Shown here piece after piece: positions 15,294-63,444 of a stretch of DNA of 64,000 nt. This stretch comes from Chelatococcus albus. Lineage in GTDB: Bacteria > Pseudomonadota > Alphaproteobacteria > Rhizobiales > Beijerinckiaceae. The notes below the pieces were generated by a model. That model was not told where the DNA came from. It did not search any database and saw nothing but the letters and a program-made list of their open reading frames with translations. A program made the position numbers and the translations under genes. The stretch lies in NCBI RefSeq assembly GCF_030067675.1, contig NZ_JASJEV010000004.1, positions 124,001-188,000 of the forward strand. The letters are read 5' to 3'. Every line of letters begins with the position of its first letter. The first letter of the stretch is position 1.

Positions 15294-15369
15294 TGGCGCT
15301 CCCTAGGGGACTCGAACCCCTGTTTTCGCCGTGAGAGGGCGACGTCCTAGACCGCTAGACGAAGGGAGC
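15294..15369 (-). tRNA. tRNA-Glu (anticodon CTC)
   Basis: On the minus strand the gene starts GCTCCCTTCGTCTAGCGGTC and ends CCCCTAGGGAGCGCCA. The acceptor stem GCTCCCT pairs with AGGGAGC, the discriminator base is G and CCA is encoded. The anticodon stem TCGCC/GGCGA encloses the loop CTCTCAC with anticodon CTC (15333-15335), reading GAG. The T arm has GGTTCGAGTCC. The 3' end faces the cas locus, as expected if the tRNA had served as an integration site, though no direct repeat was found. Confidence 0.96.
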
Positions 15370-27448: not shown

Positions 27449-27540
27449 GTCGTTCCATCCTTGCAGATGGGCGCTTCCCGTTGGGGGGAAGTGTCCCGCC
27501 GCCGGGGATAGGCGACGTGGGCCTCGGCGTCAATCGGCAT
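27449..27540 (-). promoter_or_regulatory. Possible structured serC leader RNA
   Basis: The minus-strand leader directly upstream of serC contains CTTCCC-CCCAAC-GGGAAG and CCATC-TGCAAG-GATGG hairpins, the second of which covers the ribosome site AAGGATGG. A conserved serC RNA motif with two hairpins near the start codon has been described in alphaproteobacteria. I recognise the position and the hairpins, but I cannot confirm the consensus sequence. Confidence 0.35.
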
Positions 27541-27597: not shown

Positions 27598-27637
27598 CCG
27601 CTCCCGCCCGCGGTGCAGGGCCGTGTTGCGGGCCCGA

Positions 27638-28381
27638 TCAGCCGTCGATCAGGTAGCGCAGGCCGAAGCGAATCTCGTGCTGCTGCAGGTCCTTGAGACG
27701 GACGATGCCGCCCGCCGCGTCCGACAGGGTGCGCGCCTCGCCGAGGTTCATGTAGCGATAACCGATGTCGAGCTTCAGCTCGCTCGTCACGTCGATGGCG
27801 GTGCCGGCCATGAGCGCCCAGGCAAAATTGTAACGCCGGTCGTTGCCATAGAGCGTCGTTACCGCCAGGGCGCCACCGCTCGTGTAGACGTCGACCGCGG
27901 CCTTCTTGAGCTCGTTCCCGGCGATGCCGATGCCGGCGCCCACATAGGGCGTAAAGCCCGACCAGTTGCCGAGGTCGACATAGCCGTTGGCCATCACCGC
28001 CCACGACTGCAGGTCGCCGCGATCGTTCCAGGTGCCGCCTCCGGCGACCGGCGTGACCGCCCGGAAGTCACGCGACCAGTAGTAGTCGCCGGTCACGTCG
28101 GCGCGGAGCCAGTTCGTGAACTTGTAGCCGAAGCCGCCGCCGACGGAGCCGCTCTTGTCGAGCTTCTCGCCGGCGAGCGGGATCCCCGCATAGGAAGCCT
28201 TGGGGGCTACCGGAATGGCGTAGCCGACGTCGCCGCGCAGGTACCAGCCGGAGCCGATCTCGACGAAATCGGGCCGACCCGCCGGCTCCAGCACGGGCGG
28301 CGGCGGCAAGTCCGCGGCCTGCGCGGCCCCTGCTGCGAGCGAGACGAGGCCCGCGGCCACGGCGATCTTCATGCTACCCAT
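27638..28381 (-). CDS. Porin-family outer-membrane beta-barrel protein (copy 1)
   Basis: This 247-residue protein starts MGSMKIAVAAGLVSLAAGAA and has a signal peptide ending in AAQA, followed by a proline-rich segment and an 8-strand barrel pattern: GSGWYLRGDVGYAIP, FTNWLRADVTGDYYW, GFTPYVGAGIGIAGN, YNFAWALMAGTAIDV and LKLDIGYRYMNLGEA. The last strand RFGLRYLIDG is typical of Hyphomicrobiales Omp25/Omp31-like porin-family proteins. Its exact role (structural, perhaps adhesion) is unknown. The next gene upstream is a paralogue. The ATG at 28381 has GAAGGA at suitable distance; ATG at 28372 is an alternative. A TTAA-N7-TTAAC CtrA box lies about 80 bases upstream. Confidence 0.88.
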   Translation of the reverse strand: MGSMKIAVAAGLVSLAAGAAQAADLPPPPVLEPAGRPDFVEIGSGWYLRGDVGYAIPVAPKASYAGIPLAGEKLDKSGSVGGGFGYKFTNWLRADVTGDYYWSRDFRAVTPVAGGGTWNDRGDLQSWAVMANGYVDLGNWSGFTPYVGAGIGIAGNELKKAAVDVYTSGGALAVTTLYGNDRRYNFAWALMAGTAIDVTSELKLDIGYRYMNLGEARTLSDAAGGIVRLKDLQQHEIRFGLRYLIDG

Positions 28382-28459
28382 GAAGCAAGTCCTTCGTTGC
28401 GCCGAGCAGGCCGCGCGGCCCGCCGAGATGTTCCACGGCATGACGATGCACGGGACTGG

Positions 28460-28475
28460 TTAAGACCCACTTAAC
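28460..28475. promoter_or_regulatory. CtrA-type box upstream of the first outer-membrane protein gene
   Basis: TTAAGACCCACTTAAC is a full TTAA-N7-TTAAC site, the binding sequence of the cell-cycle regulator CtrA. It lies 79-94 bases before the ATG of the minus-strand gene at 28381. A further TTAAC half-site follows at once (28477-28481). Confidence 0.65.
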
Positions 28476-29516: not shown

Positions 29517-29532
29517 TTAAGAGCGACTTAAC
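29517..29532. promoter_or_regulatory. CtrA-type box upstream of the second outer-membrane protein gene
   Basis: TTAAGAGCGACTTAAC is a full TTAA-N7-TTAAC site, 84-99 bases before the ATG at 29433, nearly the same distance as in the paralogue. A further TTAAC lies at 29541-29545. Confidence 0.65.
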
Positions 29533-29584
29533 CCTAACACTTAACCGCGTTTGTTTACGTTGCGTCGGCCAAGCAGAGCGCATG

Positions 29585-29617
29585 AAAAAGCCGGTGCGCT
29601 CTTCATGGCGCACCGGC
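29585..29617 (-). terminator. Terminator after glmM
   Basis: A 10-bp perfect stem (GCCGGTGCGC / GCGCACCGGC) with an 8-base loop and five Ts on the minus strand, 43 bases after the glmM stop. Confidence 0.85.
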
Positions 29618-29659
29618 CCATCGACATGCCCGGCCATCTGCCGGACCGCCGGCCGCCGT

Positions 29660-31003
29660 TCAGGCGGCAGCGTGCATCAGGGCGTCGACGACGTCGTCGA
29701 CAACGCGCTCGACGAGATCGCGGTCGTCACCTTCCGCCATCACACGGATCACGGGCTCCGTGCCCGACGGCCGTATCACGAGCCGGCCCTGCGCACCCAG
29801 GCGCAGACGCGCCGCCTCAATTGCAGAGGACACGGATTCGGCGTCCAGCGGCCGCCCCTGCTTGTAGCGCACGTTCTTGAGGATCTGCGGCAGGGGTTCG
29901 AAGCAGTGGCAAACCTCGCTCACCGGCTTCTGCTGGCGCCTGACGACGGCGAGGAGCTGGAGCGCGGCCACGAGGCCGTCTCCCGTCGTCGTATAGTCGG
30001 AGAGGATGATGTGGCCGGATTGCTCCCCGCCCAGATTGTAGCCGTGGGTGCGCATGTGCTCGAGCACGTAGCGGTCGCCGACCGCCGTGCGCGCGAGGTC
30101 GAGGCCGAGATCACCGAGGTACCGCTCGAGGCCGAGGTTCGACATGACCGTGGCAACGATGCCGGGTTTCGACAGGAGCCCGGCATCCCGCCAGCTCTTG
30201 GCGACCACCGCCATGAGCTGATCGCCGTCCACGAGCTGGCCCTTCTCGTCCACCACGAGCACCCGGTCGGCATCGCCGTCGAGGGCGATGCCGATGTCGG
30301 CCCGCGTCTCGCGCACCTTGCGCACAAGCGCCTCCGGCGCGGTGGACCCCACCTCGTGGTTGATGTTGAAACCGTCCGGCTCCACGCCGATGGCGATCAC
30401 CTCGGCGCCAAGCTCCCAGAGGGCCTCGGGCGCCACCTTGTAGGCGGCGCCGTTGGCACAGTCGACGACGATGCGCATGCCGTCGAGGTCGATCTGGCGC
30501 GGCAGGGTGCGCTTGGCATATTCGATGTAGCGCGCCTGCACACTCTCGATGCGCTTGGCCCTGCCGAGGTTCTGCGACTTGGCAAGCCGGGCGCCGAGAT
30601 CGGAATCCATCAGCGCCTCGATCTCGGCCTCCACCTCGTCCGACAGCTTGTAGCCGTCCGGGCCGAAGAGCTTGATTCCGTTGTCCTCATAGGGATTGTG
30701 CGAGGCGGAGATCATGACGCCGAGGTCGGCCCGCATGGAGCGGGTCAGCATGGCGATGGCGGGCGTCGGCACCGGTCCGAGCAGGAGCACGTCCATGCCG
30801 ACCGAGGTGAACCCCGCCTGCAGGGCCGACTCGATCATGTAGCCGGACAGGCGCGTGTCCTTGCCGATGACGACGCGATGGCGATGATCGCCGCGCTGGA
30901 AGAGCAGTCCGGCGGCCTGGCCGACCTTGAGCGCCAGTTCCGGTGTGATCTTGCCGTTGGCGCGCCCGCGAATGCCGTCCGTTCCGAAATATTGGTGAGC
31001 CAT
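29660..31003 (-). CDS. glmM: GlmM, phosphoglucosamine mutase
   Basis: This 447-residue enzyme interconverts glucosamine-6-phosphate and glucosamine-1-phosphate on the way to UDP-GlcNAc for peptidoglycan and lipopolysaccharide. Visible motifs are [23 protein letters not shown], the phosphoserine loop [15 protein letters not shown], metal-binding ALDGDADRV, and the sugar-phosphate loop [15 protein letters not shown]. The ATG at 31003 gives the family start [13 protein letters not shown]; an upstream in-frame extension is not conserved. It follows ftsH on the same strand, the usual ftsH-glmM order, with a 254-base gap. It ends at a strong terminator. Confidence 0.97.
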
Positions 31004-31207
31004 CGTCTTCGTAGTTCGATCGTGAAAGGTCGGACCGCAATCGCACCGCGCCGCCCGAGTTTCGGGCTTATAGCATCGCGCGCCGACGAGTGTGGCTCGA
31101 GACCCGTTCAAAAAATATGAGCGGTTCTTACAGCCGTTGAACGCCGCGGCACGGCCGGACGCCGGGTGGCCTTCCCCCCGCGCCCCGCGACGAAGCGGCA
31201 GAACGCG

Positions 31208-46688: not shown

Positions 46689-46734
46689 GGAGCGCTTTCG
46701 GCTGGCGACGGAGGGGACAGCTGCGGAGCCACAA

Positions 46735-46900
46735 AAGCCGTCGGAGGGTCGATCCCGGGAAACCTACAGCGTAGGTGGGCGCCGTTTGTCCGAGTCCACG
46801 GACCCGGTCAGGAACAGCTCCCGTTAGGATCGATAAGGCCCGGGGATAAGTTCTCCTGACGCACCCCGCAGCCCCGCAGCATCAAGTTAGGCCACGGCCC
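46735..46900 (-). ncRNA. ssrS: 6S RNA
   Basis: The locus lies between zapA and fthC, the conserved 6S RNA position. On the minus strand the 5' end GCCGTGGCC pairs with the 3' end ACGGC, and a run of Ts (46733-46736) follows. The long imperfect hairpin with a central bulge contains CACCTACGCTGTAGGTTTCC, a segment I recognise from alphaproteobacterial 6S RNAs, and CTTATCCCCGGGCCTTATCG in the central region. 6S RNA binds the housekeeping RNA polymerase holoenzyme and dampens transcription in stationary phase. The ends are approximate. Confidence 0.85.
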
Positions 46901-61993: not shown

Positions 61994-62524
61994 TCAGCGG
62001 CCGAAGGCCGAGCGCAGGAGCCCGAGCTGCTGGGCGACCGGGCTGTCGCCGGGTTCCTCCACGGGCGCGGCGGCGCCGGCGATCAGCGCATCGAGATGCA
62101 TGATGCGCGTCTGCAGACGCAGCGAATGCCCGATGAGATCCTGCAGCTTGACGGGAAGAAGGGCGAACAGCTCCGGCGCCGACGTCTGATCCTGCCAGGT
62201 GAGCTTCACCTTGTTCTGCTCCTGCCGGGCCTGTTCGGGGGTCATCTCCCCTTCCGCCACGGCGCGTTGCACGAGGAGCCACGAGGCGATCTGCATCAGG
62301 CGCGTGGTGAGTCGCATGCTCTCGGTGGCGTAGGCGAGCGAGCCCTGCCGCACGAGGCCGCGCGAATCGTCGCGCCCCTGGCCGTCGAGATAGGCGGCCG
62401 TCTCCTCGATGAGACCCATGCCCTCGCGGAAGAGGAGGCGGAAGGATTCGGACGAGACGAAGCTCTGGCCGAAGGAAATGGGCGTCACTCTCTGGGCCGC
62501 CGGCAACATGGTCGGTTCAGTCAT
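61994..62524 (-). CDS. rcdA: DUF1465 protein, RcdA-like (regulator of CtrA degradation)
   Basis: This 176-residue helical protein shows FVSSESFRLLFREGMGLIEE, TAAYLDGQGRDDSRGL, YATESMRLTTRLMQIASWLL and EGEMTPEQARQEQNKVKLTW, the DUF1465 profile. Caulobacter RcdA belongs to this family and is an adaptor that, with CpdR and PopA, helps ClpXP degrade the cell-cycle regulator CtrA. Whether the Hyphomicrobiales protein acts the same way is inferred from family and length (RcdA is about 175 residues). A CtrA-like element lies 111-124 bases upstream of the ATG at 62524, and a candidate CtrA-linked sRNA lies further upstream. Confidence 0.85.
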   Translation of the reverse strand: MTEPTMLPAAQRVTPISFGQSFVSSESFRLLFREGMGLIEETAAYLDGQGRDDSRGLVRQGSLAYATESMRLTTRLMQIASWLLVQRAVAEGEMTPEQARQEQNKVKLTWQDQTSAPELFALLPVKLQDLIGHSLRLQTRIMHLDALIAGAAAPVEEPGDSPVAQQLGLLRSAFGR

Positions 62525-62634
62525 ATTCGTCTCGCCTCCCGTCGTCGAACGGCGGCCTGTCCCGTCCCGGGACGAGGCACCCCGCTTCGGAGGCGACCTC
62601 GCAAATCTAGCGCCGGGGCCTCGCACACGCCCGG

Positions 62635-62648
62635 TAACCTATCGTTAA
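62635..62648 (-). promoter_or_regulatory. CtrA-like element upstream of rcdA
   Basis: On the minus strand TTAACGATAGGTTA reads TTAA-N7-TTA followed by C, one base short of the full CtrA box. It lies 111-124 bases before the rcdA ATG, and TTAAGGTTAAC overlaps it (62645-62655). The Caulobacter rcdA promoter is under CtrA control, so a match here is plausible. Confidence 0.45.
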
Positions 62649-62735
62649 GGTTAACGTCGATAGGAGTCTGTGGACAGAGGCTCGACTAGTCCGGACGGAG
62701 GCGGCGCGGACCCGCCCCGCACGCAGGTCTGCCGG

Positions 62736-62761
62736 AAAAAAGAGCCGCCCGAAGGCGGCTC
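62736..62761 (-). terminator. Strong rho-independent terminator of the candidate sRNA
   Basis: An 8-bp GC stem with a UUCG tetraloop and six Us on the minus strand. The nearest gene upstream on this strand would be beyond the plus-strand GNAT gene, so an independent short transcript is implied. Confidence 0.85.
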
Positions 62762-62830
62762 GAAGTCATAACAGGGAGGCGTCAAACAGAGTGGACAGGA
62801 GCCACTCGACATCCAGAAGACTGGACGGTT
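62736..62830 (-). ncRNA. Candidate trans-acting small RNA with anti-Shine-Dalgarno motifs
   Basis: Read on the minus strand, a transcript starting near 62830 and ending at a canonical terminator would be about 95 nt. It has three stems: TCCAG-TCTT-CTGGA (62812-62825), GAGTGG-CTCCTGT-CCACTC (62789-62807) and the terminator GAGCCGCC-TTCG-GGCGGCTC with six Ts (62736-62761). The loop of stem 2 carries CTCCT, and the linker to the terminator carries GCCTCCC; both are complementary to Shine-Dalgarno sequences, as in known alphaproteobacterial sRNAs. A full CtrA box (62852-62866) centred about 30 bases upstream, plus ATTATTA as a possible -10, suggests a CtrA-controlled promoter. No upstream minus-strand gene exists for this terminator to serve. 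Confidence 0.6.
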
Positions 62831-62851
62831 TCCTGTAATAATCGAGAAAGC

Positions 62852-62867
62852 TTAAGAGACCGTTAAC
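62852..62867. promoter_or_regulatory. CtrA-type box between the candidate sRNA and the GNAT gene
   Basis: TTAAGAGACCGTTAAC is a full TTAA-N7-TTAAC. It lies about 25-35 bases upstream of the inferred sRNA start on the minus strand and 119-134 bases before the plus-strand GNAT ATG, so the sRNA is the closer target. Confidence 0.6.
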
Positions 62868-62985
62868 GGCCACGGCCGGGTTGCCCGGAGATGTCCCGAT
62901 TTGAGCCGGCTCGGTCGGGCGGCAAGCAATGTCGCGGAAATCGCCCGGGACCCACCTTCATCCCGGCTCGACGGCGGAGTTCACC

Positions 62986-63444
62986 ATGCCACCCGAGCTT
63001 GTCGTCAGACCCTTCGTTCCCGGCGACGATGCCGCCTGCCGGGCCCTCGCGAGCCGTGCCGCCATGTCCTCCTACGGCGAGCGGCTGCCTGACGCCCGCG
63101 CCGCCCTCGCCGATCCGGCGACGCCGCTCGAGGCGGTTGCGCTGCGGCTCGTGGCGCTGGCAGACGACGCGATCGTCGGGTTCGTCGACGTCGAGGGCCA
63201 CCATGTCGCCAATCTCTTCGTCGATCCGGCCGTGCAGGGCCGGCAGATCGGCGCGGCGCTCCTCTCGGAAGCGGAGGCGCGGATCGCCGGCGACGTGACG
63301 CTCAACGTCTTCATCGTCAATCCGCGTGCCCGCGCCTTCTACGAGCGGCACGGCTACGTCTGCACCGGCACCCGGCGCACCATCTTCTTCGGCGCGGAAG
63401 CCAAGATGTGGTCGATGGTCAAGCGACGGGGCGGCGGCGACTGA
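62986..63444 (+). CDS. GNAT-family N-acetyltransferase
   Basis: This 152-residue protein has the GNAT fold: VGFVDVEGHHVANLFVDPAV, the acetyl-CoA loop QGRQIGAALLSEAE (matching Q/RxxGxG/A) and VFIVNPRARAFYERHGYV near the C-terminus. The substrate is unknown. The ATG at 62986 has GCGGAG upstream at good distance. It converges with the DUF1192 gene, 14 bases between stops. Confidence 0.88.
   Translation: MPPELVVRPFVPGDDAACRALASRAAMSSYGERLPDARAALADPATPLEAVALRLVALADDAIVGFVDVEGHHVANLFVDPAVQGRQIGAALLSEAEARIAGDVTLNVFIVNPRARAFYERHGYVCTGTRRTIFFGAEAKMWSMVKRRGGGD

Follow-up and report, generated by a model that had tools for sequence, protein, structure and literature searches.

A BjrC1505-family small RNA with a conserved CtrA-type promoter box, mostly sited upstream of rcdA, in Chelatococcus albus and its relatives

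On balance we favour the reading that the minus strand of the Chelatococcus albus window (the whole stretch of DNA that was analysed, 64,000 nt) encodes a stand-alone, trans-encoded small RNA (sRNA) of about 98 nt, a member of the BjrC1505 family, that would be controlled by CtrA and would pair with mRNAs through anti-Shine-Dalgarno loops. The sRNA identity of 62735-62832 is near certain. In the proposed mechanism, CtrA would bind a box overlapping the -35 region of the sRNA promoter and would control the transcription of the gene, most likely activating it, while CtrA is active in the cell cycle. RNA synthesis would stop at the sRNA's own terminator, ahead of rcdA, and an exposed CCUCCC, joined in many species by CUCC, may then pair with the Shine-Dalgarno regions of mRNAs and lower their translation. 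The new part looks to be the near-constant CtrA box and the mostly rcdA-adjacent siting of a known sRNA family; our search of the open-licence literature, outside which most subscription journals lie, returned no published link of BjrC1505 or SmelC671 to CtrA or RcdA, which is weak evidence of novelty.

Identity and distribution of the sRNA

On the minus strand, an exact CtrA-type box is followed by an AT-rich possible -10 element; hairpins 1 and 2 come next, then the C-rich core and finally a strong terminator (Table 1). The terminator stem, GAGCCGCC/GGCGGCTC, occupies 62761-62742 with its TTCG loop and is followed by six T at 62741-62736; it was the single site returned by a terminator scan of 62500-63100, against a mean of 0.3 in shuffled sequences. 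The 98-nt RNA folds at -39.5 kcal/mol (z -5.06), a stability equalled by none of 200 shuffles, and the CTCCT motif lies at 62801-62797. Its 5' end was placed from the possible -10 element and from the length of the 100-nt S. meliloti transcript SmelC671.

Table 1. Coordinates of the sRNA locus and its neighbour in the window
Feature	Coordinates	Strand	Basis
CtrA-type box TTAA-N7-TTAA, exact	62852..62866	minus	motif scan; kept in relatives
Possible -10 element GATTAT	62838..62843	minus	read by eye
sRNA gene, BjrC1505/RF02356 family, about 98 nt	62735..62832	minus	RF02356 and R1 matches
Hairpin 1, CGUCCAG-UCUU-CUGGAUG	62810..62827	minus	fold; both-side changes in 4/4 counted pairs
Hairpin 2, CUCCU in loop, anti-Shine-Dalgarno-like	62789..62807	minus	fold; both-side changes in 5/5 counted pairs
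Conserved core GACGCCTCCCTGTT, predicted small hairpin exposing CCUCCC	62770..62783	minus	conservation; accessibility prediction
Intrinsic terminator, 8-bp stem, UUCG, six U	62736..62761	minus	terminator scan; both-side changes in 6/8 pairs
Weak sigma54-like site CGGCGCTAGATTTGC, 2 mismatches, between sRNA terminator and rcdA	62601..62615	minus	motif scan
rcdA (DUF1465), downstream of sRNA	61994..62524	minus	DUF1465 profile; 3ctw match

The Rfam model RF02356 (BjrC1505) matches 62735-62869 over positions 1-140 of its 140, scoring 100.3 bits where 50 is the cut-off (E 1.4e-19). This is the only copy in the genome, and RF02356 is the sole Rfam family above its cut-off at this place. The matched span includes the promoter; the model starts upstream of the CtrA box, so that what is catalogued under RF02356 is RNA and promoter combined. 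An RNA-only model, R1, built from 68 copies, matches 62735-62833 with 99.7 bits, the Chelatococcus albus copy itself being part of the training set. Across the order Hyphomicrobiales, RF02356 was found in 128 of 150 sampled genomes (E up to 0.001, strict filters), 108 of them above cut-off. A class sample yielded it in 23 of 192 genomes; two of these 23 (G000 and G076) belong to the order, and one match (L051) is falsely made to a tRNA. None of 14 control genomes, Caulobacter vibrioides among them, was matched by RF02356. R1 reached 56 of the 192 class genomes at E up to 0.001, weak matches not being counted as members.

For the alignment, 42 of the 131 order copies were dropped as redundant, as having more than one mismatch in the core or as lying too close to a contig end, and 68 of the 89 kept were aligned. 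Three helices covary in these relatives, both-side changes occurring in 15 of the 17 pairs. The number of cells changed on both sides was 76, compared with a mean of 15.9 after shuffling and 11-19 when the helices were slid, and 95.0% of cells were paired, compared with 34.6-52.8% when slid. The preliminary description had drawn from this strand a strong terminator, two further stems, one with a CTCCT loop, and an sRNA gene. All of these are borne out. Its term "unannotated", taken to mean an unknown RNA, has to be given up, since the family is catalogued. Madhugiri and colleagues are said to have confirmed BjrC1505 by Northern blot in 2012 and to have found it lower in nodules.

SmelC671/Sm84 of S. 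meliloti and ReC71 of R. etli are among the closest known RNAs. In S. meliloti Ak57 (L489) the homologous RNA is matched by R1 with 41.6 bits (E 3.7e-9) and by RF02356 with 27.2 bits, below cut-off. The terminator is present, and the order, with the boxes read by eye, is DUF1192, exact box, sRNA, second exact box, rcdA; the core is shortened to CTCCCTGTTTT, unlike that of Chelatococcus albus. Published reports describe SmelC671/Sm84 as a 100-nt plus-strand transcript between two forward genes (PMC2573895, PMC2873474), with a distribution that includes Bradyrhizobiaceae and Methylobacteriaceae (PMC3927594). It is probably the orthologue, as judged from these accounts by position, strand, length, gene orientation and distribution rather than by the published sequence. 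BjrC1505 and SmelC671, two catalogued RNAs, are probably one family, the Rfam model of which is shown here to contain promoter DNA.

Other known sRNAs are less close. CcnA of Caulobacter resembles the present sRNA in having a C-rich loop and a promoter with a predicted CtrA box, but lies at the replication origin (PMC8959179), and RF02356 matched no control genome, that of Caulobacter vibrioides included. EcpR1 (SmelC291) and GspR (SmelC775) are alike in kind, being rhizobial cell-cycle sRNAs. EcpR1 is placed beside divK-pleD and rpmG, unlike the present locus with its neighbours GNAT, DUF1192, rcdA and L31; membership was rejected on these neighbours and on RF02356 alone passing here. GspR is reported solely in Sinorhizobium and from a different locus. 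The mmgR/suhB family (RF00519) likewise has a GC-rich terminator preceded by a C-rich linker; membership was rejected because the locus scores 23.6 bits, short of the cut-off at 41, the genome having a separate match. This separate mmgR/suhB sRNA lies at G000:C32:222725-222801, about 35 kb past the window end.

Two sRNA copies occur in each of five genomes, G150 (L036, L054), G325 (L044, L053), G015 (L233, L262), G022 (L010, L243) and G088 (L019, L237); a CtrA box with at most one mismatch is kept in nine of these ten copies and lost in L237. Outside the order, four copies (L033, L034, L036, L043) precede a gene whose product, judged by eye, resembles a homocysteine/homoserine sulfhydrylase.

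The CtrA-type box and the sRNA promoter

The box lies at about -34 to -20 relative to the predicted sRNA start, the promoter position given to it in the preliminary description, and is one of three exact TTAA-N7-TTAA boxes in the window, where 0.00 were expected. The stretch that follows it is weakly conserved among copies, and a simple sigma70 scan of 62500-63100 found no promoter. Upstream sequence sufficed for a box search in 129 of the 131 order copies. Within an upstream window of 80 nt, the best-fitting box had at most one mismatch in 123 of these and was exact in 54; six control windows at these loci gave 0-12 of 128-131, and shuffles 6.7%. This count is biased, since the RF02356 model contains the box. 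The unbiased one comes from 118 named loci (119 matches) picked solely by core and terminator: among the matches listed, a box with at most one mismatch stood upstream in 113 of the 114 copies with room for it, 78 of them exact, while six control windows gave 0-14 of 108-118. The class copies outside the order had a box in a 100-nt window in 22 of 22 cases, L051 being left out. All these copies are related by descent, so that the box counts are not independent.

CtrA boxes that overlap a -35 region usually serve activation, and the Chelatococcus albus genome has a ctrA gene (C32:41166-41837). We consider it likely that the sRNA is under CtrA control; both the binding and its direction are predicted from the box, a conserved promoter box of the kind by which members of the CtrA regulon are recognised.

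It is unlikely, yet deserves some weight, that the sRNA is real and its box is unused by CtrA, or that CtrA represses the sRNA instead of activating it. What was seen is the motif, and in S. meliloti CtrA depletion left rcdA unaffected, although a CtrA ChIP peak is reported for the rcdA promoter region (PMC4433202). However, TTAA-N7-TTAA is the described CtrA motif (PMC12403871), and the peak falls in the region that holds the sRNA in L489. A CtrA-driven sRNA there would explain a peak that comes with no depletion response, although the second exact box, nearer to rcdA, leaves an alternative. Agrobacterial rcdA is described as having several start sites, and its CtrA site is placed "further upstream" than that of the Caulobacter gene (PMC10469942); these findings would fit the reading of a CtrA-driven sRNA. 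The sRNA is a possible reason for both sets of published observations. With the box in 113 of 114 copies among the matches listed, CtrA control of the sRNA can be tested across the Hyphomicrobiales.

The C-rich core and its possible targets

Of the 131 order copies, 110 carry the core GACGCCTCCCTG unchanged and 120 keep CCTCCC, and the six bases of CCUCCC have a mean predicted unpaired probability of 0.87-0.96 over 113 copies. The two C-rich motifs had been put forward as complementary to ribosome sites. Conservation in relatives is high for CCTCCC and only moderate for the CTCCT type, CTCC being found within the 27-nt hairpin-2 stretch in 64 of 113 copies. GCCTCCC is present as described, but its assignment to a linker gives way to a predicted third small hairpin exposing CCUCCC; this helix, GACG/UGUU, hardly varies, so that covariation neither supports nor refutes it. 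An exposed, conserved C-rich loop, as modelled here, would place the sRNA among those of the anti-Shine-Dalgarno type, and base-pairing by its C-rich loops is plausible.

The preliminary description went on to suggest a cell-cycle loop in which the CtrA-driven sRNA silences cell-cycle mRNAs. This part is not supported for ctrA, gcrA or rcdA. In a whole-duplex test that ignored accessibility, mean z was 0.05 for rcdA leaders (n=108), 0.20 for ctrA (n=24) and 0.20 for gcrA (n=18), against 0.12 for DUF1192 (n=67) and 0.11 for L31 (n=66) as controls; 29 ctrA and 25 gcrA leaders had been extracted, of which the 24 and 18 were paired with the sRNA of the same genome. The longest exact match to the core averaged 4.92 nt for rcdA, 4.46 for ctrA and 4.56 for gcrA, against 5.18 for DUF1192 and 4.48 for L31. 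These three candidates were rejected, their leaders pairing no better than the controls in either test.

In a further test, 15 genomes were scanned for the seed CAGGGAGGC immediately ahead of an ATG. The seed matched 191 times and the reversed control pattern 22 times, a surplus that may be common to any Shine-Dalgarno-like string. The matches were examined in part (110 loci with sequence, one site twice; 71 open frames kept), and in these 71 frames no convincing target was found. The gene thiG, which recurs in three genomes, was rejected, its site being, by our own reading, the Gln-Gly-Gly codons at the C-terminus of ThiS; three unlike ABC-transporter ATPases, with mutual identities of 24-34%, were taken as paralogy and rejected as a shared target. 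The target tests are shallow, and no mRNA is excluded by the duplex, core-match or seed tests.

The sRNA might instead work through binding of its conserved core to a protein such as an RNA chaperone or a ribonuclease, in place of mRNA pairing. This seems improbable to us. Conservation is higher in the core than in hairpin 1 or hairpin 2, which is partly a product of selection, the aligned copies having at most one core mismatch; in the unselected order copies it is still exact at the frequency given above, and no conserved mRNA target emerged from the duplex, core-match or partial seed tests. Against it stand the shallowness of that target search and the resemblance of CCUCCC to the anti-Shine-Dalgarno loops CCUCCUCCC of SmelA075 and SmelA099 (PMC3927594).

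The rcdA neighbour

The open reading frame downstream of the sRNA (61994-62626, probable start 62524) matches DUF1465 (E 3.4e-55), and its product matches by sequence the solved structure 3ctw (E 1.1e-36), which is that of Caulobacter RcdA. The rcdA gene serves the breakdown of CtrA. An rcdA relative on the same strand was found downstream by tblastn in 121 of 131 order copies and 9 of 23 class copies, as well as in 105 of the 118 named loci among the matches listed; a profile search adds one class copy with a divergent rcdA (L044). The RcdA-like neighbour of the preliminary description is thereby confirmed, and the adjacency of sRNA and rcdA is real and widespread.

By tblastn and profile together, 20 sRNA copies have no detectable rcdA downstream, a count that excludes L044 and two copies near contig ends (L042 and L053). 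The CtrA box is kept in 19 of these 20; the one that lacks it, L237, has a damaged core and is the second copy of the sRNA in that genome. In seven of the 20 (L221, L226, L229, L233, L236, L267 and L050) the sRNA occupies its usual place next to ribosomal L31. At these seven loci, rcdA has apparently been lost, moved or diverged extremely, and the sRNA and its box persist there.

The gap between terminator and rcdA has a median of 169 nt over 121 loci. A sigma54-like site with at most one mismatch stands in 37 of the 121 gaps, L004 and L007-L010 among them, compared with 1 of 117 control windows and none of 121 reverse strands; at the named loci the figures are 20 of 104 gaps and 0 of 95 controls, among the matches listed. 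No such site with at most one mismatch was found in the remaining 84 gaps, that of Chelatococcus albus included. A second CtrA box (at most one mismatch) occurs in 31 of the 121 gaps, a count made without a matched control.

That the sRNA is a prematurely terminated 5' leader of rcdA, an attenuator with the box belonging to the rcdA promoter, is mostly rejected and very improbable: the shared strand, the median gap of 169 nt, the position upstream of rcdA in 121 of 131 order copies and the 84 gaps with no close sigma54 site speak for it, but the sigma54-like promoters within the gap at many loci and the second CtrA box there at some (exact in S. meliloti) argue against it, as do the box-bearing copies that have no detectable rcdA.

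Under the favoured reading of a separate sRNA gene, it may be hypothesised, tentatively, that a CtrA-driven sRNA extends the CtrA regulon, throughout the order, to the post-transcriptional level, and that it stays next to rcdA because the production of the sRNA and the degradation of CtrA are coupled. If so, the S. meliloti rcdA ChIP peak would at least partly be that of the sRNA. A sigma54-like promoter of rcdA in many Hyphomicrobiales would, for its part, tie the breakdown of CtrA to RpoN; our literature search saw no report of such a promoter.

Other features of the window

The sRNA locus lies between rcdA and a GNAT acetyltransferase gene (62983-63444, plus strand), the latter lying between DUF1192 and the sRNA. 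A GNAT relative is found at 4 of 131 order loci, that of Chelatococcus albus included, and DUF1192 lies upstream at 74 of 131. The two other exact TTAA-N7-TTAA boxes of the window are at 28460-28474, the 3' end of the open reading frame 27623-28474, and at 29517-29531, before the open reading frame 29582-31120. The other Rfam families that pass in the window, all on the minus strand, are 6S RNA (46722-46877), a serC leader (27450-27501) and a tRNA (15297-15369).
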